A stretch of DNA of 64,000 bases from Leptolinea sp. HRD-7. Its GTDB lineage: Bacteria; Chloroflexota; Anaerolineae; Anaerolineales; Anaerolineaceae. The stretch covers positions 2,140,001 through 2,204,000 of the forward strand of contig AP024710.1 in NCBI GenBank assembly GCA_024363285.1, in the 5' to 3' direction. Under the pieces are notes generated by a model. That model ran no database searches. It was given only the letters and a program-made list of their open reading frames with translations, and was not told the DNA's origin. Both the position numbers and the translations under genes were made by a program. How positions within the stretch are numbered: the first letter of the stretch is position 1; every line of letters begins with the position of its first letter. Shown here one piece after another: positions 8,750 through 27,854 of this stretch.

Positions 8750-10555
8750 TTATGCCAGAGAAAGTTCGTGGAGTTTCTCTGGAGTCGGGACGCCCTTGGA
8801 ATCCCATCCACGCAGGCTGTAGTACTCGGGCAACATCTTATCCAGATGACTGACTTCGCCTTTGGACGGACCAGCCGGGATCGGTTCTTTGGTCATACGG
8901 TCCGGGAGACGGTCATCTTTGCCGCTGATGGCCGATTTAAGGCCGAAGAGGCGTTCCAGGTTCCAGATTCGTTCGCCTGCTTTCATAAAATCATCAACAG
9001 AGTATGGTACGCCAGTGACAGCAGAAAGCAAAGCAGCCAGTTCTTCTGCGCCAATGCCGAAGGTGGTGAACAGGCAGGAACCGGTTGAATCCAGAGCAGC
9101 CGTCAGGTTCTGGAAGGTAATTACCAGAGCGGGTTTGCCTTCAGTAGCGTGCTGGTCAACTTTGAATGGTACACCCAGAACTTCTGGAGAGATGGTATAG
9201 CCGCGAACGTGGCAGCCGCCGCGATTACTGGTGGCATAGTGCAGGCCAATACCCTGAACGCCACGTGGATCGTAAGCCGGCATTTCCTGTTTTTTCGCCG
9301 ACATCGAGAATTCAGGATGGTTATACCGGGTCGCAAGGCGGAAGGAACCTTCAGCCAATTGATCGCCGAAACCTTCACGATTAGCGGTCATTTCAACCAG
9401 TTTGACCATAGTCTCGGCATCGCCGAATTTGATAGCCATACCGCCGGTATCTTTCGCGGTAATAATTCCGCTTTCATATAGATCCATGGCGCAGGCAATT
9501 GTTGTGGCGCAGGTTATGGTATCCAGTCCCAACTCGTTGCAGAGGTAGTTGGCTTTGATGATGGCATCCATATTGTCGACACCGCAGTCAGAACCAAAGC
9601 CCCAGGCGGTTTCGTATTCCGGACCTTCGCCTTCGCCGGCAAATTTTGGATTGGTCACTTTTGTTCCCCGTCCGCAGGAAATGATGCAGGAGAAACAGCC
9701 GCGCGGGCGGGTAAGGTATTTGGCTGTAAGCGTTTCACCACCGAATTTATCCGCATTCGGGAAGTAACCTTCGTGGAAGTTGCGAGTGGGGAGAGAGCCA
9801 ACACTGTTCAGGATGTTGGTCAACACATCGGTGCCATATACACGCAACCCGGTTCCGCCAACAGGATGTTCCGATATTTTCTTGCGGGCAACCATAACAG
9901 CCTTTTCGAAGGCTTCAGGATCAGCCACTGTTATGGGTTTCGTGCCAACAACGGCGACAGCCTTCAAGTTCTTAGAACCCATGACAGCGCCAACACCCGA
10001 GCGGCCGGCAGCCCGATGCATCTCGTTCATAATAGAGGCAAAGAGGACTTTCTTCTCACCAGCAGGCCCAATGCAGGCTACTTTCGCGTCTTCATCGGTT
10101 GCCGCGCGAAGAGCCTCTGTGGTGTCTGGAACATTCTTCCCCCAAATGTCAGACGCGTCACGGATCTCTACGGTATCATCATTGATCCATAAGTAAACAG
10201 GTTTCTTAGCGGCACCTTCGATAATGATCAGGTCATATCCGGCAAATTTGACTTCCGGGCCAAAAGAACCACCAGAATTGGAAGCAGCCAGAAGACCCGT
10301 CAAGGGAGCTTTGCAAACCACGTCATAGCGACCCATGGAAGGAGCCATAGTTCCCGAGAGAGGCCCCGGAGCAAAAATCAATTTGTTATCTGCACTTAAA
10401 GGGTCAATCTTGGGGTCGATCTCGTCTGTCAGGATTTTGCTGGCCAAACCACGGGCACCAATAAAGAGTTTCGCATCCTGTAAATTCGTCGGCTCTTTTT
10501 TGATTTCACCTGAACTGAGATTTACTCTTAGAATTACACCTGTCCAACCGTTCAT
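8750..10555 (-). CDS. aor: Aldehyde:ferredoxin oxidoreductase (tungsto/molybdopterin), classical type
   Basis: 601 residues. [4Fe-4S] ligands are C287, C290 and C294 (CFSCIISC) plus C494 (TGSCLF), spaced as in Pyrococcus furiosus AOR. The bis-pterin signature RAAGRSGVGAVMGSKNLKA (181-199) is present, and E313 (GPEYET) and H449 (GGCH) match the active-site Glu/His pair. Reaction in the family: aldehyde plus water to carboxylate plus two electrons, passed to ferredoxin; reversible in some enzymes. The metal (W or Mo) and the aldehyde cannot be read from sequence. The start ATG overlaps the stop of the upstream four-cluster ferredoxin by 4 bp, implying a fixed partner. The moaD and hydrogenase genes follow on the same strand. 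No signal peptide, so it is cytoplasmic. Confidence 0.94.
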   Translation of the reverse strand: MNGWTGVILRVNLSSGEIKKEPTNLQDAKLFIGARGLASKILTDEIDPKIDPLSADNKLIFAPGPLSGTMAPSMGRYDVVCKAPLTGLLAASNSGGSFGPEVKFAGYDLIIIEGAAKKPVYLWINDDTVEIRDASDIWGKNVPDTTEALRAATDEDAKVACIGPAGEKKVLFASIMNEMHRAAGRSGVGAVMGSKNLKAVAVVGTKPITVADPEAFEKAVMVARKKISEHPVGGTGLRVYGTDVLTNILNSVGSLPTRNFHEGYFPNADKFGGETLTAKYLTRPRGCFSCIISCGRGTKVTNPKFAGEGEGPEYETAWGFGSDCGVDNMDAIIKANYLCNELGLDTITCATTIACAMDLYESGIITAKDTGGMAIKFGDAETMVKLVEMTANREGFGDQLAEGSFRLATRYNHPEFSMSAKKQEMPAYDPRGVQGIGLHYATSNRGGCHVRGYTISPEVLGVPFKVDQHATEGKPALVITFQNLTAALDSTGSCLFTTFGIGAEELAALLSAVTGVPYSVDDFMKAGERIWNLERLFGLKSAISGKDDRLPDRMTKEPIPAGPSKGEVSHLDKMLPEYYSLRGWDSKGVPTPEKLHELSLA

Positions 10556-11034
10556 GATTCCACCTCCTTGAAAGCTTCTTTAAACTTGGTTGCAAAAGCT
10601 TTCTTCCTTGAACGTGTAGCTACATTTTCTTCTACATATTCAATCGCATGAACGGGACAAGCAACCACACAACTGGGATCGTCGTTGCAGGTGTCGCATT
10701 TTAGAATGGAGTCAGTCACGCTATCGTATACTGCATTGCCAAACGGACAAGCCTGAACACACATTCGGCACCGTATACATTTGCTGGCATCATATTCGAT
10801 AAGTGTTGAACCTGTAACACGGTGCATGGCACCGGTGGGACAAACACTCGCGCAGGGCGCATCGTTACATTGCTGGCACATCATGGGGACGGAAATACCC
10901 TCGCGTTCCCATGCGTAGACATGTACACGTGCAGCAGCCGGACGGAATTGCTTTTCTTTGGCATAGCTGCAGGCTACAACACAGTTCTTGCAACCCGTGC
11001 ACTTGTCAGGATGGATCATGATCAACTTCGCCAT
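10552..11034 (-). CDS. Four-cluster ferredoxin-like electron-transfer subunit of AOR (AorA/HycB-like)
   Basis: 160 residues with sixteen cysteines in four [4Fe-4S] motifs: C12/15/18/22, C53/56/61/65, C86/89/92/96 and C113/116/122/126. This is the DmsB/HycB-type arrangement, and similar proteins partner AOR catalytic subunits in AorABC-type enzymes. A basic/acidic tail (about 140-160) follows. Its stop overlaps the AOR start (ATGA). It should carry electrons from the AOR cluster to the hydrogenase arm or to soluble ferredoxin. ATG at 11034 is preferred because AAGGAGG (11042-11048) lies 7 nt upstream; a TTG at 11040 is too close. It is the first gene of the operon. Confidence 0.92.
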   Translation of the reverse strand: MAKLIMIHPDKCTGCKNCVVACSYAKEKQFRPAAARVHVYAWEREGISVPMMCQQCNDAPCASVCPTGAMHRVTGSTLIEYDASKCIRCRMCVQACPFGNAVYDSVTDSILKCDTCNDDPSCVVACPVHAIEYVEENVATRSRKKAFATKFKEAFKEVES

Positions 11035-11109
11035 TGACAAACCTCCTTCATAGAGTAAATTCCTGATTCAGTGTACAGAATCGTCCTTTGGAATACACCC
11101 GCATTGAGG

Positions 11110-17225: not shown

Positions 17226-17258
17226 TAACCCCAAATCAGTCTGAAACGAAAGCCATTG

Positions 17259-18257
17259 ATGATGCAACTCATTCAACATATCCATTCTGGCGCGGGCATT
17301 AAACTTCTGGGTGACCCAACCCGATTGGGTATCTTACGAAATTTAATTGCCAGACAGGCGACGATTTCTCAACTGGGGGAAATATTCGGTATTCATCCTG
17401 CTCAGGTTCGCAACCATGTAAAGGTGCTTGAAAAAGCGGGGTTGGTGGAGCTGGTCTCAGTTCAGATGGGGAAAAATTTTGTCGAAAAATATTACCGGGC
17501 GACGGCAAAACTGTTTGTGGTTAATGAGGTTATAGTATCAGAGCCTCCGGCGAAAGATCAACTGATAGTTTTATCAAGTGATGACCCCGCGTTGAATTAT
17601 TTTGTCTCTCGTATTAATGATGCAATGAACCGGAATTACATCAACATAATCCCTGTAGGTAGCCTGGACGCGCTGATTTTTCTTCGCGAAAAATTCAGTG
17701 ACATAGCCGGATGCCATTTGTTTGATGTTGCCACCCAAACCTATAACATCCCGTATATTCAACATTTATTTAGCGATGAAGAGATGGTATTGATCAACTT
17801 TGTCGGCCGGGAACAGGGACTGTATGTGGAAAAAGGCAATCCTCAGAATATTACCGGATTGAGAGATTTGACCAGGCAAGATGTCACCTTCAAGAACAGA
17901 AACAAAGGGTCTGGAACCCGGGTTTGGTTTGATCAGCAATTAAAAATAATGAACCTGCGTTATGAAAAAATCAATATTGCGCAAGGAGACGCTTTGACGC
18001 ATGCCGACGTGGCGAAATGTGTTGCGGCTGGACTGGCTTCATCGGGGATTGGGATTTACTCTGTTTCAAGAGCCTATGGACTGGATTTCATTCCTTTGTT
18101 CACAGAACAATACGATCTGGTCATGAGAAAAGAACTATTTGATTCAGCCGCGTTTAAACCGGTTTTAGACATGCTGGGAAATCAGGCAATTAAGGATTTT
18201 GTTATACACATGGGGGGATATACAGTCACTTCTATGGGAAACTCACATTCCATATAA
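17259..18257 (+). CDS. Winged-helix (ArsR-like) regulator fused to PBP-like sensor domain
   Basis: About 332 residues. The N-terminal winged helix (about 10-90) contains LLGDPTRLGILRNLIARQATISQLGEI-type sequence, typical of ArsR-like proteins, with recognition helix HPAQVRNHVKVLEKAGLV. The rest (about 100-332) is the PBP-like domain shared with the MoeA fusion and with 2-568 (HLFDVATQTYN, VGREQGLYVEKGNP, NRNKGSGTRV). This architecture is a one-component sensor; given that the identical domain is attached to MoeA, it likely senses tungstate, molybdate or the pterin cofactor and controls the AOR and cofactor genes around it. Start is uncertain between TTG 17256 and ATG 17259 or 17262, with only a weak ribosome site. 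It lies 180 bp after the MoeA fusion with its own promoter. Confidence 0.9.
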   Translation: MMQLIQHIHSGAGIKLLGDPTRLGILRNLIARQATISQLGEIFGIHPAQVRNHVKVLEKAGLVELVSVQMGKNFVEKYYRATAKLFVVNEVIVSEPPAKDQLIVLSSDDPALNYFVSRINDAMNRNYINIIPVGSLDALIFLREKFSDIAGCHLFDVATQTYNIPYIQHLFSDEEMVLINFVGREQGLYVEKGNPQNITGLRDLTRQDVTFKNRNKGSGTRVWFDQQLKIMNLRYEKINIAQGDALTHADVAKCVAAGLASSGIGIYSVSRAYGLDFIPLFTEQYDLVMRKELFDSAAFKPVLDMLGNQAIKDFVIHMGGYTVTSMGNSHSI

Positions 18258-18306
18258 AATGTAATCCCGCGGTTCAGACAATTGTCACTAATACCCCGTG
18301 AATATA

Positions 18307-18375
18307 TTCGTATTAATTTCCGGGTTACATTAAAATTTTTTTTAAATCTTGTTTTACGTTAAAATTTTTTATAAT
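18307..18375 (+). promoter_or_regulatory. Promoter region of the moaD-like/AOR2 operon with direct repeats
   Basis: TATAAT at 18370-18375 with a modest -35 (TTGTTT, 18349-18354, 15-bp spacer). A direct repeat TTACRTTAAAATTTTTT occurs at 18325-18341 and 18354-18370, 29 bp apart or nearly three helical turns. TTCGTATTAA at 18307-18316 matches boxes upstream of the other AOR/cofactor genes. Confidence 0.5.
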
Positions 18376-18401
18376 ATAAAACCATCAAAGGTCCCCCGCA
18401 G

Positions 18402-18749
18402 ATGATCAAAGTAAATACGTGCCTTTATGGTTCTTTAGCTCGGTATGGTGGTGGAAAATATGTTGCCGAGGTGGTTGTTGAATTAAAACCAGGTTCAGGA
18501 AAAGCTGAACTTCTGGAACTTTTAGGTATTCCATCGGATGAAAGAGGCTATTTGTTTATCAACGCTGTATTGTGCGAAGTTCCGGGAATCAATACAGGAG
18601 CCAATGAAATATTGAAAGATGGCGACCATGTCGGGATTTTCTCAAAAGACCGCCTGTTTCCGTTTCAATACCGCGACGGATTACCTATCTCAGAAGGATT
18701 GAGAAAAACACTACGTGAACATGGTGCCATGCACCATTCTTATAAATAA
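18402..18749 (+). CDS. MoaD-like ubiquitin-fold protein lacking the terminal GG
   Basis: 115 residues. The first ~85 follow the MoaD/ThiS fold (VNTCLYGSLARYGGGKY, LFINAVLCEVPGINTG, LKDGDHVGIFSKDRLF), comparable to the bona fide carriers at 8393 and 21482. However the chain does not end in GG; it continues about 30 residues to HGAMHHSYK. It therefore cannot serve as a sulfur carrier in the usual way. It may be a structural or chaperone-like relative, or a MoaD that has become an AOR accessory subunit. It is the first gene of the AOR2 operon, 67 bp before the AOR gene. The upstream GGTCCCCCGCAG offers a poor ribosome site. Confidence 0.8.
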   Translation: MIKVNTCLYGSLARYGGGKYVAEVVVELKPGSGKAELLELLGIPSDERGYLFINAVLCEVPGINTGANEILKDGDHVGIFSKDRLFPFQYRDGLPISEGLRKTLREHGAMHHSYK

Positions 18750-18816: not shown

Positions 18817-20574
18817 ATGCCCAAAAAAATCCTGCGAATTAATATGACTGACCTGAAGGCAACATATGAAGATGTGCCGGTGAAATGGTCACGGTGGGCT
18901 GGCCGCGCGTTGACATCCGCCATCGTTTGCGACGAAGTGGATCCAATGTGTCATCCCCTTGGACCGAACAACAAGATTGTGATCGCTCCGGGATGGGTAT
19001 CTGGTTCGCCGGCGGCGCCGAGCAGCGGCCGCACGTCTTTTGGCGGAAAGAGTCCCTTGACTGGCGGTATTAAGGAATCGAATGCCGGCGGTATGTCTTC
19101 ACAAAAAATCGCCAAACTACGCCTTGCCGCGATTATCATTGAAGGTACACCGGCAAAAGGAAAATGGTATACCCTGGTTATCAACAAAGATGGCGTGAAA
19201 TTTGAGAACGCGGCAGATCTGTTGGGCAAGGGCATGTACGAAGTAGATGAGATCCTTGGGAAGAAACATCCCAAACAGGCGATCATCGGTATTGGCCCTG
19301 CTGGAGAGATGAAACTGTCTAACGCGGGTATCTCTGTAAACGATCAGGAAAATCGGCCTGGCCGTTATGCCGGACGCGGAGGATTGGGCGCGGTCATGGC
19401 AGCCAGAGGGGTAAAAGCTATCGTGATCGATGATGACGGAGCTCCTGGTGTAGAGATTGCCAATGAAGAACTCTTCAAAGAAGGCCGCAAAAAACTGACA
19501 GAAGCCATTCAGGAACATGGTTTGACCAAGAAAGACGGCGGCCTCAACGCTTATGGCACCGCGGTTCTCGTCAATATTCTCAATGAAGCTGGCGGTTTAC
19601 CCACCCGTAATTTCAGCGCAGGCCAATTTGAAGGTGCCGCCAAGATCTCGGGTGAAGCAATGGCTGAACTCTGTGAAAAGCGCGGGGGCGAAGGCACTAT
19701 GGGGCATGGCTGCCACCCGGGCTGCATTATCAAATGTTCCAATATCATCCCTGATGAAAAAGGCAATGCGGTGGCATCCTGTGTGGAATATGAAACCACC
19801 TGGGCGTTGGGCGCGAACTGTGGCATTGATAACCTTGATTACATCGCTCAGATGACCCGTGAGTGCAATGATATCGGTTTGGATACCATTGAAGCCGGTA
19901 ATACTATTGCTATTGCCATGGAAGGTGGATTGCTGGAATTTGGCGATGAAAAAGGTGCCCTAAAGACCTTTGATGAGATCCGCAAAGGAACACCGCTGGG
20001 CCGTATTCTGGGCCAGGGTGTTGAGGCAACCGCTAAAGCCTTTGGCGTTAGCCGTGTTCCAGTGGTGAAGCACCAATCGATGCCGGCGTATGAACCGCGT
20101 GCCGTCAAAGGTATTGGTGTGACATATGCCACAACCCCTATGGGCGCTGACCACACCGCCGGTTATACCATCGCACCTGAAATTGCCGGTGTGAGCGGGA
20201 AACTGGATCCGTTATCTGATGAAGGCAAGGCGCAACTTTCTCTGACCTTCCAGGCGGCAACTGCTTTTATTGACAGCAGCGGCTACTGCCTGTTCATCGC
20301 TTTCCCGATCCTCGATATTGCCAAAGGTTGGGAAGGTATGGCTGAGTCTGTAGCCGGAGTGACCGGGCAAAATATAACCGGCGGCGATGTTATCGCTATT
20401 GGTAAAGAGATATTGAAGATGGAACGCCTCTTCAATGAGCGTGCTGGTTTCACCGCCCATGACGACCGTCCGCCGGAATTCATGCGAGAAGAAACCCTGC
20501 CGCCGCATAATGTCAAATGGACAATTACGGACGAACAGCTCGATTCTGTTTATTCCTGGGTACACGAAGGTTAA
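18817..20574 (+). CDS. Aldehyde:ferredoxin oxidoreductase family protein, divergent subgroup (AOR2)
   Basis: 585 residues from the ATG at 18817, chosen because AAAGGAG (18802-18808) lies 8 nt upstream; the open frame reaches back to 18715 but overlaps the previous gene. Cluster ligands are C299, C303 and C307 (CHPGCIIKC) plus C491 (SGYCLF): CX3CX3C instead of the CX2CX3C of AOR1. The pterin segment GRYAGRGGLGAVMAARGVKA, the active-site E324 (VEYET) and H446 (GADH) are present. It shares overall architecture with AOR1 but is clearly a different subfamily, so a different aldehyde or reverse acid reduction is possible. No dedicated ferredoxin gene is adjacent; electrons would use soluble ferredoxin. 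Downstream are an unknown gene, a GG-ending MoaD and a radical SAM protein. Confidence 0.92.
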   Translation: MPKKILRINMTDLKATYEDVPVKWSRWAGRALTSAIVCDEVDPMCHPLGPNNKIVIAPGWVSGSPAAPSSGRTSFGGKSPLTGGIKESNAGGMSSQKIAKLRLAAIIIEGTPAKGKWYTLVINKDGVKFENAADLLGKGMYEVDEILGKKHPKQAIIGIGPAGEMKLSNAGISVNDQENRPGRYAGRGGLGAVMAARGVKAIVIDDDGAPGVEIANEELFKEGRKKLTEAIQEHGLTKKDGGLNAYGTAVLVNILNEAGGLPTRNFSAGQFEGAAKISGEAMAELCEKRGGEGTMGHGCHPGCIIKCSNIIPDEKGNAVASCVEYETTWALGANCGIDNLDYIAQMTRECNDIGLDTIEAGNTIAIAMEGGLLEFGDEKGALKTFDEIRKGTPLGRILGQGVEATAKAFGVSRVPVVKHQSMPAYEPRAVKGIGVTYATTPMGADHTAGYTIAPEIAGVSGKLDPLSDEGKAQLSLTFQAATAFIDSSGYCLFIAFPILDIAKGWEGMAESVAGVTGQNITGGDVIAIGKEILKMERLFNERAGFTAHDDRPPEFMREETLPPHNVKWTITDEQLDSVYSWVHEG

Positions 20575-20640: not shown

Positions 20641-21456
20641 ATGGCAGAATACTACGACCTTTTTTGGGGATATAAAATAACATATCCCGATTTTTGGATT
20701 CAACAACCTGCCGGTGATTCAGTATATTTTGCCGCAAGAAGTGAATGCTTTGATCCGCTATACGAAGAACCCGACGCGGGATTTATTGCTGTGAAGGGTG
20801 AATGGAACTGGGCAAAAAAAGACATCCGGCCCTTATGGTATGAGAATATAGGAAAGACCGCTGGCTTTCTGGGAGCGAAAGATGTAGGGTCTGCTCCCTG
20901 GAAGATGGCTGGCGCAACGGGGCTGGAAGCGGAAATCGTGCTTCCTAAAAAAGAAAACCGTCGTCTTTGGACGGGAATTTTGGCGTATGACTTTGTTGTT
21001 TTGCATTTCATGGTGTCACATCCGAAGATCGTGCGTTCGTATTTTGAGCCTTTAGCCACCAATCTCATTTCCAGCTTAACATTCACAGCGACAAATGTCG
21101 CCCTTGATACATCCCCGGAGGGAATTCCTGTCCCTCCCGGGTATCTAAGTATTGACCCAAAAACGATCATTGAAGATATTGATGATGCGTCTAAATGGCG
21201 CGCCTATGATGGGAATGCCAGTATCGGCGCGTTGCAATCATTTTTTGTTCGAACTCTCCCATCAAATGGTTGGGAAATTTTGGAATATGTTCCTTTCACA
21301 ACGTTATCTGATCTGGGATTCGCGCGGTATAAGATCAAAAAAGGGACATATGAAGTGATGTTAGGGATTATGCCTGCCAGCGTGTATGATGTAGAAAGTT
21401 CACAAAACAGGGCAAAAATCGTTTATAAAGTAAATGGTTATTCTGCTTCTTATTAA
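20641..21456 (+). CDS. Uncharacterised protein in the AOR2 operon
   Basis: 271 residues, no recognised family. No signal peptide or membrane helix is evident. The protein has two halves joined near a proline-rich stretch (about 158-172, TSPEGIPVPPGYLSIDP): an N-terminal half rich in aromatic residues (YYDLFWGYKITYPDFW) and a C-terminal half with alternating beta-like strands. The first half resembles PsbP/Mog1-type small folds only in its general pattern of strands, so no function is claimed. Its place between AOR2 and its MoaD, 66 and 25 bp from neighbours, points to an AOR accessory role. The ATG at 20641 lies 11 bp after a stem-loop and lacks a good ribosome site. Confidence 0.75.
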   Translation: MAEYYDLFWGYKITYPDFWIQQPAGDSVYFAARSECFDPLYEEPDAGFIAVKGEWNWAKKDIRPLWYENIGKTAGFLGAKDVGSAPWKMAGATGLEAEIVLPKKENRRLWTGILAYDFVVLHFMVSHPKIVRSYFEPLATNLISSLTFTATNVALDTSPEGIPVPPGYLSIDPKTIIEDIDDASKWRAYDGNASIGALQSFFVRTLPSNGWEILEYVPFTTLSDLGFARYKIKKGTYEVMLGIMPASVYDVESSQNRAKIVYKVNGYSASY

Positions 21457-21481: not shown

Positions 21482-21721
21482 ATGCGTGTTTCCGTAAAAC
21501 TTTTTGCGACATTAACTCATTACGGTCCCGGGGTTAAAGCGGCGGAGCCGTTTGACGTTGATCTCCCGGAGAATGCCAGGGTCATTGACCTGATCCGTTT
21601 ACTGAATATCCCTCCGGTGGAAGCGCATGTTGTCTTTATTAATAACATTATCGTTCGGCATGATACACCTATAAAAAGTGGTGATAATATCGGCATCTTT
21701 CCTCAAGTTGCCGGCGGATGA
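21482..21721 (+). CDS. moaD: MoaD/ThiS-family sulfur carrier (AOR2-associated)
   Basis: 79 residues from the ATG at 21482, chosen because GGAG (21472-21475) lies 6 nt upstream; an in-frame TTG at 21470 would overlap that site. Features of MoaD: N-terminal strand MRVSVKLFATLTHYG, VVFINNIIVRHDTPI, and the C-terminal GDNIGIFPQVAGG with the GG needed for adenylation by MoeB. It is the second complete MoaD in the window and lies between the unknown AOR2 neighbour and the radical SAM gene. Having one MoaD per AOR locus suggests separate supply for each enzyme. Confidence 0.9.
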   Translation: MRVSVKLFATLTHYGPGVKAAEPFDVDLPENARVIDLIRLLNIPPVEAHVVFINNIIVRHDTPIKSGDNIGIFPQVAGG

Positions 21722-21782
21722 TTTGCTCGTTGGGTGATATTGTCTTTTTTTGTGTCCCAGGAACCTTAGAGGAAATGCCTTA

Positions 21783-23045
21783 ATGAAGAAACAATATTTG
21801 CACAAAGCCCATATCGATGAAATGGGGCGATTGATCATTCCACAGGACTTGGTTTCTCGCTTCGGGTATAAACCCGATTCGGATGTTTATATAGAGGAAG
21901 GGAATGATGAGATCAGGCTGCACCGGCCTGTTTCGCACCTGGCAAAAGTGTATATAGAGGTGACCAATCTATGCAACCTTGATTGTCAGACCTGCATGCG
22001 CAATGTTTGGGGTGAACCATCAGGTATGATGAGTGACGCTACATTTGAAAAAATCTTCGCTGAAATTCAGGGAATGTCTGTCTTACCCACGGTATTTTTT
22101 GGGGGATATGGCGAACCGCTTATTCATCCTAAAACAGCAGAGTGGGTAACAAGGTTTAAAGAAATAGGTGCCCGGGTGGAGTTGATCTCAAACGGGCTTC
22201 TTTTGACAGAAGAACGGTCACTTCAGTTCATTCGCGCAGGGTTGGATGTTTTATGGATATCGCTGGATGGTTCATCGGAAGAGAGTTATGTGGATATCCG
22301 GTTGGGTTCCTCACTTCCGGTGGTGATCGATAACCTGAAAAAATTGCGGTATATACGACATAAGGCAACTGACATCGATAACTCACTTCCCAATCTGGGT
22401 ATCGCTTTTGTGGCGATGAAAAAGAATATAAGTGACCTGCCTGAAGTCTTAAAGCTCGGTGTGCAACTGGGGGCGAACCGTTTTTCAATCAGCAATGTTC
22501 TCCCTCATACACCTGAATTAAATGATCAAATCCTGTATAAGCGGTCTATCCAGAATATGGTTGGCCGGCAAAATACATCTTATCCATTGGTCAATTTATC
22601 GCGAATGGACTGGAATGATGTTACAAAAGATGTGCTTGCGTATATTTATGGCCGGAAATTCCGCCTGGAATTAGCCGGATACGAAACCAATCGGGCAGTG
22701 GATACCTGCCCGTTTGTAGAGCAGGGGAGCATGTCAATCCGGTGGGATGGTAGCGTGTCACCGTGCCTTCCGCTTCTTCACACAAACCAATATGTGTGCC
22801 GGATGCAGTTGCGAAAGACCTTAAATTATTCGCTGGGAAATATCAATGACATCGGGGTTTTGGGGATATGGCAAGGCGAGAAATATGCTGCTCTCCGCGA
22901 TCGGTTGCAGCGGTTTGATTTTTCTCCCTGTACATTTTGTGATGGCTGTGAATTATCAGAAGAAAATTTGACCGATTGCCTTGGGAATACAGAACTGGCA
23001 TGCGGTGGTTGTTTGTGGGCACAGGGATTTATTCGGTGCCCATAA
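21783..23045 (+). CDS. AbrB-domain/radical SAM/SPASM fusion, AOR cofactor-modifying type
   Basis: 420 residues from ATG 21783 (AGAGGA upstream at 21768-21773). Residues about 6-50 form a swapped-hairpin AbrB/SpoVT-like domain (HIDEMGRLIIPQDLVSRFG). The radical SAM cluster motif is C64-C68-C71 (CNLDCQTC), followed by GGYGEPLIHP. The C-terminal SPASM-like region has many cysteines (CPFVEQGS, SPCLPL, CTFCDGC, CGGC). Related proteins beside AOR genes in archaea and anaerobes are annotated as tungsten cofactor-modifying proteins; their reaction is not established. The AbrB domain could bind DNA or protein and is odd on such an enzyme. Last gene of the AOR2 operon; a terminator follows at 23210-23256. 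Confidence 0.9.
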   Translation: MKKQYLHKAHIDEMGRLIIPQDLVSRFGYKPDSDVYIEEGNDEIRLHRPVSHLAKVYIEVTNLCNLDCQTCMRNVWGEPSGMMSDATFEKIFAEIQGMSVLPTVFFGGYGEPLIHPKTAEWVTRFKEIGARVELISNGLLLTEERSLQFIRAGLDVLWISLDGSSEESYVDIRLGSSLPVVIDNLKKLRYIRHKATDIDNSLPNLGIAFVAMKKNISDLPEVLKLGVQLGANRFSISNVLPHTPELNDQILYKRSIQNMVGRQNTSYPLVNLSRMDWNDVTKDVLAYIYGRKFRLELAGYETNRAVDTCPFVEQGSMSIRWDGSVSPCLPLLHTNQYVCRMQLRKTLNYSLGNINDIGVLGIWQGEKYAALRDRLQRFDFSPCTFCDGCELSEENLTDCLGNTELACGGCLWAQGFIRCP

Positions 23046-23335: not shown

Positions 23336-23364
23336 TTGACATGGCAAACGTTTGCCGCTATACT
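23336..23364 (+). promoter_or_regulatory. Strong sigma-70-type promoter of the sugar importer operon
   Basis: -35 TTGACA (23336-23341), 17-bp spacer, -10 TATACT (23359-23364). Predicted start of transcription near 23371, about 80 nt before the first permease gene. A perfect LacI-type operator occupies most of the spacer and a second begins at the start site, so the promoter is built for tight repression. Confidence 0.88.
23343..23356. promoter_or_regulatory. LacI-family operator O1 inside the promoter spacer
   Basis: GGCAAACGTTTGCC, a perfect 14-bp palindrome with the central CG typical of LacI/GalR sites. It fills the spacer between -35 and -10, so bound repressor would exclude RNA polymerase. 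The likely ligand is the LacI-type protein encoded at 26763-27854. Confidence 0.85.
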
Positions 23365-23370
23365 ATTGTC

Positions 23371-23390
23371 AATGGCAAACGTTTGCCATT
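23371..23390. promoter_or_regulatory. LacI-family operator O2 at the transcription start
   Basis: AATGGCAAACGTTTGCCATT, a perfect 20-bp palindrome with the same core as O1. The two centres are 31 bp apart, close to three helical turns, placing both repressor dimers on the same DNA face. Confidence 0.85.
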
Positions 23391-26762: not shown

Positions 26763-27854
26763 ATGCCTGTTACCCTTCATGAACTAGCCAGAGCTGCCGG
26801 TGTTTCCGTGTCTACTGTTTCAAGGGCGCTTAATAGCAGTGCACACCCTGTCAATGAAGAAACCCGAAAATTAATTCTGGATCTGGCCGCCAAAATGGAT
26901 TACCGGCCTAACGTGGCAGCCCGTGGACTGAAGACAGACCGGACGTACACTATTGGATTGGTTGTCTACAATATCGCCAGCCCGTTTACACCGGTTTTGA
27001 TTCGGGGAATACAGGAATATCTTAAGCAGCATGATTATTTCAGCATCATCATCAGCACCGATTGGGATCCTGACCTGGAAGGTGAGGCTGTTCATCAATT
27101 GATCAGTCGTTCCATTGATGGTGTCATATTCGTCGAAACCTGGCGGGATATGACCAATAAACCGCTGGATCTGGCAAATAAACCGTATGTGTATGTCTAC
27201 CGGTTGTTTGATGGGGAATACGCGAATTCCGTCAATATCGATGATCGGGCGGGAGCGGTGTTGGCTGTTGAACACCTCGTCAAACTCGGGCACCGCCGTA
27301 TCGGTTATATAAACGGGCCTCAGGGATGGGCTTCATCACGAGACCGTTTGCTTGGGTACAAAGATGTTCTCGAGAAACATGAGATCCCTTTCGATCCTGA
27401 ATTGGTACAAGAAGGCAACTGGGAAGTACAAAGCGGAAACCAGGCAGCCTGTCGTTTAATGAAGATCGGAAACAGACCAACTGCCATTTTCGCCGCGAAT
27501 GATCTGATGGCTCTTGGTGCAATATACGGGATACAAAATACCGGACTTAAAGTACCAGAAGATGTAGCCGTGGTCGGATATGACGATCAGGATTTTGCGG
27601 GTTTTTCTAAACCGACAATAACCACCGTCCGTTCACCAGCATTTGAGATGGGAAAACTGGCGGCAAAACTGATTCTGGACCAGTTGGAAAATCAAATTGA
27701 AATACTGGACCCGATCAAAGTACCGGGAACGTTGGTAATTCGTGAATCATGCGGGTCAAATCAGGCAACGCTCCCGGCAGAACATTACATCAGTCACACG
27801 CTGCCGCCCGAATCATTAATCCAAAAGTGGAAAGGCAAGAATAAGCACGAATAG
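26763..27854 (+). CDS. LacI-family transcriptional repressor of the arabinoside locus
   Basis: 363 residues. The N-terminal HTH and hinge are clear: VTLHELARAAGVSVSTVSRALN (3-24) followed by YRPNVAARGL, the hinge that inserts in the minor groove at a central CG. The core (about 60-340) is a periplasmic-binding-type sugar-binding domain (IGLVVYNIASPFTPVLIRGI, FAANDLMALGAIYGI, VAVVGYDDQDFAGF). The matching operators are the two GGCAAACGTTTGCC palindromes in front of the importer. It lies between importer and hydrolase genes, so its inducer is probably a product of those enzymes. Followed at 27893-27908 by a short ACCCGGC/GCCGGGT hairpin and the GH127 gene. Confidence 0.93.
   Translation: MPVTLHELARAAGVSVSTVSRALNSSAHPVNEETRKLILDLAAKMDYRPNVAARGLKTDRTYTIGLVVYNIASPFTPVLIRGIQEYLKQHDYFSIIISTDWDPDLEGEAVHQLISRSIDGVIFVETWRDMTNKPLDLANKPYVYVYRLFDGEYANSVNIDDRAGAVLAVEHLVKLGHRRIGYINGPQGWASSRDRLLGYKDVLEKHEIPFDPELVQEGNWEVQSGNQAACRLMKIGNRPTAIFAANDLMALGAIYGIQNTGLKVPEDVAVVGYDDQDFAGFSKPTITTVRSPAFEMGKLAAKLILDQLENQIEILDPIKVPGTLVIRESCGSNQATLPAEHYISHTLPPESLIQKWKGKNKHE

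Follow-up and report, generated by a model that had tools for sequence, protein, structure and literature searches.

Several SPASM enzymes that modify peptides or proteins carry a winged-helix recognition element at their N-terminus. The swapped hairpins of AbrB, MazE and SpoVT, another small fold, make intertwined homodimers. In Thermococcus kodakarensis, the radical SAM gene TK1064 adjoins genes for a MoaD protein (TK1065) and an aldehyde:ferredoxin oxidoreductase (AOR; TK1066), and a role in tungsten-cofactor maturation has only been suggested (PMC11323500). In the aorABCDE operon of Aromatoleum aromaticum the AOR gene is accompanied by two genes for MoaD-like proteins, and the report on it mentions no radical SAM gene (PMC6365974). 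Here we describe a locus in Leptolinea sp. HRD-7, lying in a 64,000-nucleotide stretch of DNA (the window), which shares the MoaD-like pair beside an AOR gene with A. aromaticum and differs in including a gene for a radical SAM/SPASM enzyme, a putative AOR-cofactor maturase with an AbrB/MazE-type domain at its N-terminus.

The radical SAM/SPASM gene and its operon

The gene occupies 21783..23045 on the plus strand, from an ATG at 21783 to a stop ending at 23045, and encodes 420 amino acids. The start is backed by a ribosome-binding site, GAGGAA (21769..21774, +), read from the sequence 8 nt 5′ of the ATG, and by the variation among relatives of the residues between an alternative TTG at 21750 and the ATG. 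Profiles for both expected catalytic regions match above their cut-offs: radical SAM (PF04055, 54.4 bits against 29.5, residues 58-189) and SPASM (PF13186, 50.8 bits against 21.5, residues 309-389). Within the radical SAM core, residues 52-250 (21936..22532, +), lies the CxxxCxxC [4Fe-4S]/AdoMet motif, C64-N-L-D-C68-Q-T-C71 (21972..21995, +), whose columns, including C64, C68 and C71, are invariant in 32 homologues. The cysteines of the SPASM and cysteine-rich C-terminal region, residues 309-420 (22707..23042, +), which ends in CGGCLWAQGFIRCP, are invariant or nearly so in the same set. With the motif present and SPASM above cut-off, the protein belongs to the radical SAM/SPASM superfamily.

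The nearest curated family is TIGR04317 (W_rSAM_matur), putative radical SAM maturases of tungsten cofactor oxidoreductases, which is matched over its whole length (profile positions 2-349 of 349, SPASM included); the score, 274.8 bits, falls short of the 380 bits set as the curated cut-off. Seven relatives bearing the same N-terminal domain exceed that cut-off. The enzyme resembles TIGR04317 maturases in the whole-profile match, in its SPASM cysteines and in an operon with AOR-family and MoaD-like genes alongside; it differs in its lower score and in the added AbrB domain, as the model begins at residue 52 and residues 1-51 fall outside it. In a fold search with the whole predicted model, the catalytic part groups with SPASM enzymes that modify peptides or proteins (ChlB with leader, anSME and SuiB; Z 21-22).

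Upstream on the plus strand lie, in order, a gene for a MoaD-like protein without Gly-Gly and with a conserved C-terminal tail (18402..18749, identified by alignment; ThiS 13.6 bits, below cut-off), the AOR-family gene AOR1 (18817..20574; PF01314 287.6 bits, PF02730 194.4 bits), a gene for a 271-residue protein without a family match above cut-off (20641..21456), and one for a MoaD/ThiS-like sulfur-carrier protein with a Gly-Gly end (21482..21721; PF02597 39.8 bits), directly 5′ of the radical SAM gene. The association with AOR and MoaD made in the preliminary description is borne out by this operon and by the linkage in relatives. The genes stand downstream of moeA-type genes and of a likely operon regulator (17256..18257, +) that combines an ArsR-type helix-turn-helix (PF12840, 50.9 bits) with a PBP_like sensor (PF12727, 197.1 bits). 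The set is found again at loci L030 and L032-L040, with the 271-residue protein conserved between AOR and MoaD. In a distant second branch, whose scores exceed the TIGR04317 cut-off, the genes for AOR, the radical SAM protein, Gly-Gly MoaD and tailed MoaD follow a different order, and a third group of relatives adjoins another AOR type plus a MoaD-like gene. Scans for promoters and terminators returned no more than in shuffled sequence.

Further features of the neighbourhood were observed. The tail of the first MoaD-like protein (18402-18749) has the pattern PFQYRxG...HHxY and is retained next to AOR in each of the two distant branches of the radical SAM enzyme; the protein might be a non-carrier subunit or a scaffold. 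The AOR at 18817-20574 has a CxxxCxxxC motif (CHPGCIIKC) where other AORs near related enzymes have CxxCxxxC. A second AOR-family gene (8750-10555, minus strand) with a ferredoxin-like partner (10552-11040, minus strand) is located some 10 kb upstream in the opposite orientation, with no adjacent radical SAM gene. In seven relatives (L034:4999-5988; L031, L035-L039) the gene directly before that for the radical SAM enzyme encodes a MoaA-type protein with a Gly-Gly end; it is absent from the window. Downstream, the palindrome GGCAAACGTTTGCC occurs twice at 23343-23387, ahead of an operon for a sugar ABC transporter, and the two copies are likely sites of the LacI-type regulator encoded at 26763-27854.

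The N-terminal domain: fold and DNA-contact residues

The domain covers residues 4-49 (21792..21929, +). Taken alone, that of the window protein scores below cut-off against both relevant models (Pfam MazE_antitoxin, 18.6 bits against 24.7; NCBIfam TIGR01439 AbrB, 14.2 bits against 28.3). Across 36 homologous N-termini, MazE_antitoxin is matched by 26 (best E 1.1e-9) and the AbrB model by 25 (best E 1.6e-10), and when genomes were searched with the AbrB model, three fused relatives (L108, L110 and L120) scored above its curated cut-off. The reverse search, with a profile built from the N-termini, retrieved stand-alone AbrB-type ORFs of 81-131 amino acids from other genomes (E ~1e-6). Two further long Chloroflexota ORFs, L109 (350 amino acids) and L111 (341 amino acids), have an AbrB domain towards the C-terminus, which is another AbrB fusion.

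AlphaFold2 predicts a β-β-α-β-β arrangement, with strands at residues 10-11 and 17-18, a helix at 21-27 and strands at 36-39 and 44-47; the mean pLDDT of the domain is 83 in the full protein and 80 when modelled alone. As the whole-model fold search barely probed the N-terminus, the domain was folded by itself and compared using Foldseek and VIA-align. The leading matches are all swapped-hairpin chains, among them those of AbrB, SpoVT, Abh and MazE. AbrB 1z0r ranks first (Z 6.4, rmsd 2.1 over 51 residues), and SpoVT 2w1t (Z 5.6) and MazE 2mru (Z 5.3) are included. Single Foldseek E-values are unremarkable (best 0.03), which is normal for a query of 58 residues; the weight lies in how uniform the list is. 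The fold core is hydrophobic at positions 11, 17, 19, 23, 27, 29, 35, 37, 44 and 46 in 31-36 of the 36 fused domains, and the turn residues P20 (34/36) and G28 (30/36) are kept. A chance likeness to AbrB is ruled out by the family-wide matches together with the fold search. Residues ~4-49 are thus confirmed, by sequence profile and structure prediction, as a genuine AbrB/MazE swapped-hairpin domain, in keeping with the original assignment of an AbrB-like head to a radical SAM/SPASM enzyme. Both conditions that the preliminary description named as counting against the idea were checked, and neither arose: the predicted fold is that of AbrB, and homologues carry and conserve the domain. The domain shares with those of AbrB, MazE and SpoVT the predicted topology, the GR..P......G..PG signature and the hydrophobic core. 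It differs in being fused to an enzyme, in having mostly lost three of the four arginines with which AbrB contacts DNA, and in not being basic.

AbrB contacts DNA through R8, R15, R23 and R24, of which R15 is not essential for binding (PMC4022651). When AbrB is aligned to the profile by HMM, these residues fall at A9, R16, V24 and S25 of the window protein, and the equivalent positions are basic in 0, 20, 3 and 10 of the 36 fused domains, respectively. Each of 15 other AbrB domains encoded in these genomes has arginine at the position of R23. The fused domains are near neutral or acidic, with a median net charge of -1 versus +3 for the other AbrB domains of the same genomes (Mann-Whitney p 4e-5, for sequences that are non-independent). 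On this evidence, the AbrB fold is kept and its DNA-contact chemistry is largely gone.

These residues bear directly on the suggestion that the domain binds DNA and that the enzyme thereby also regulates its own tungsten-enzyme operon, one of two roles put forward in the preliminary description. The fold is homologous to that of DNA-binding AbrB, some orphan relatives (L073 and L086) have arginine at the R23 position, and the R15 equivalent is still basic in more than half of the fused domains, where other residues could also contact nucleic acid; yet the R8, R23 and R24 equivalents are mostly lost and the charge is near-neutral to acidic. The surroundings of the operon also speak against the suggestion: alignable close relatives (five sequences only) share no conserved element upstream of it, the inverted repeats in 18258-18401 are A+T-rich and mostly imperfect, and an ArsR-type regulator gene stands directly upstream. 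Autoregulation through DNA binding would seem quite unlikely.

Distribution, genomic linkage and retention of the domain

Searches covered a sample of 400 Chloroflexota genomes and 198 from Spirochaetota. The Chloroflexota yielded 27 family matches at E ≤ 1e-50 in 24 genomes, all 27 with the domain, and genome contigs added 11 close relatives with the domain (68-87% identity) and two Spirochaetota copies. With all 26 further Chloroflexota matches carrying it, a domain peculiar to one protein is ruled out. The Spirochaetota contain both domain-bearing copies and a group in which no more than ~15-30 residues precede the core. In a tree built from the core, with the N-terminus left out, 42 domain-bearing copies from the Chloroflexota and Spirochaetota fall together, joined only by a homologue from Thermovirga lienii (Synergistota) that lacks the domain and sits on a very long branch; the sister clade, from Spirochaetota, is without the domain. 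The simplest reading of the tree would be a single gain with a possible loss in Thermovirga, the rooting being uncertain. The preliminary description had called such a domain on a putative AOR cofactor-modifying enzyme odd. The combination is real, and it is less odd than it appeared, being the standard N-terminus of a clade in two phyla.

An AOR gene lies within ~3.1 kb of 25, and a MoaD-like gene within ~2.3 kb of 26, of the 42 domain-bearing loci with usable flanks (the window included), compared with neither gene nearby for any of 12 domain-lacking Spirochaetota copies. Neither AOR nor MoaD lies near sixteen of the 42 domain-bearing copies, and T. lienii shows the AOR-MoaD-radical SAM linkage without the domain, which rules out a perfect association of domain and linkage. 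The Thermovirga arrangement also implies that AOR maturation does not, as a general rule, depend on the domain. At the level of whole genomes, AOR is present in 24 of 24 enzyme-bearing Chloroflexota genomes versus 177 of 400 overall (hypergeometric 1e-9 by genome and 1e-5 by genus, indicative only as the genomes are related). AOR presence fails to separate domain-bearing from domain-lacking copies, since genomes with domain-lacking copies carry AORs too. Homologues are non-independent samples throughout, and test values are only indicative.

The domain evolves faster than the enzyme core (pN/pS 0.29 vs 0.18), and by this measure it is kept under purifying selection in all 42 clade members. The faster rate and the absence of the domain from related enzymes would suit a relic, or an element that lends stability and has no particular partner, retained by packing on the radical SAM core. 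The domain persists, however, with its fold signature intact in every member of a clade spanning two phyla, and we consider this explanation very unlikely.

Possible roles in dimerisation, docking and substrate recognition

An intact fold core, the loss of DNA-contact residues, purifying selection and linkage to AOR and MoaD together favour reuse of the AbrB fold as a protein-protein module, for homodimerisation or docking, on a putative AOR-cofactor maturase. We put the probability of this reading at roughly 0.55. Two N-terminal domains would swap hairpins as in AbrB and MazE, giving an enzyme homodimer, and the joined barrel, or the enzyme faces that it fixes, could then place a protein or cofactor-carrier substrate for radical chemistry. 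The candidates for that substrate are AOR and the adjacent Gly-Gly MoaD. Of the two roles first proposed, tethering or oligomerisation would fit better than regulation of the operon.

A different emphasis would make the domain primarily a substrate-recognition element that binds a peptide, or the MoaD or AOR protein, directly, with dimerisation secondary. SuiB, CteB and SkfB offer the closest comparison: there, as here, the SPASM enzyme is headed by a small domain whose fold belongs to a DNA-binding class, although theirs is a winged helix and ours a swapped hairpin, and no precursor peptide has been identified for the present enzyme. The domain is AbrB-type and not a winged-helix (PqqD-like) one, and the analogy lies in where the domain sits and in its logic, without extending to membership of the same family. 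The folds nearest to the whole model, those of ChlB with leader, anSME and SuiB, are likewise of peptide- or protein-modifying enzymes, and a MoaD-like gene adjoins most linked copies, yet an adjacent MoaD is absent from many copies and no shared substrate peptide was found. MazE-class antitoxins also bind proteins, a property of this fold class that suits direct recognition. MazE grips its toxin chiefly by its C-terminal tail, however, and not by the hairpin barrel. Direct recognition as the main function is possible, if rather improbable.

Searches of an open-access library returned no paper that links AbrB to radical SAM enzymes or to AOR, although this does not prove that none exists. The AbrB-headed domain architecture would be a new one on a known kind of enzyme, and annotation databases may already list it. 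A more speculative extension, to which we give little credence, would make AbrB folds a second and so far overlooked type of head by which SPASM radical SAM enzymes recognise their substrates. In the present enzyme the head would recruit the AOR apo-enzyme or the MoaD-like protein with Gly-Gly; if true, cofactor sulfuration, tungsten insertion and radical modification would take place on one scaffold. With dimerisation or docking as the preferred role, the AbrB-headed enzyme would add a case of a DNA-binding fold turned protein-handling module. The conserved extra domain, along with a natural set of relatives without it, gives a direct handle on oligomeric state and partner choice in this family.
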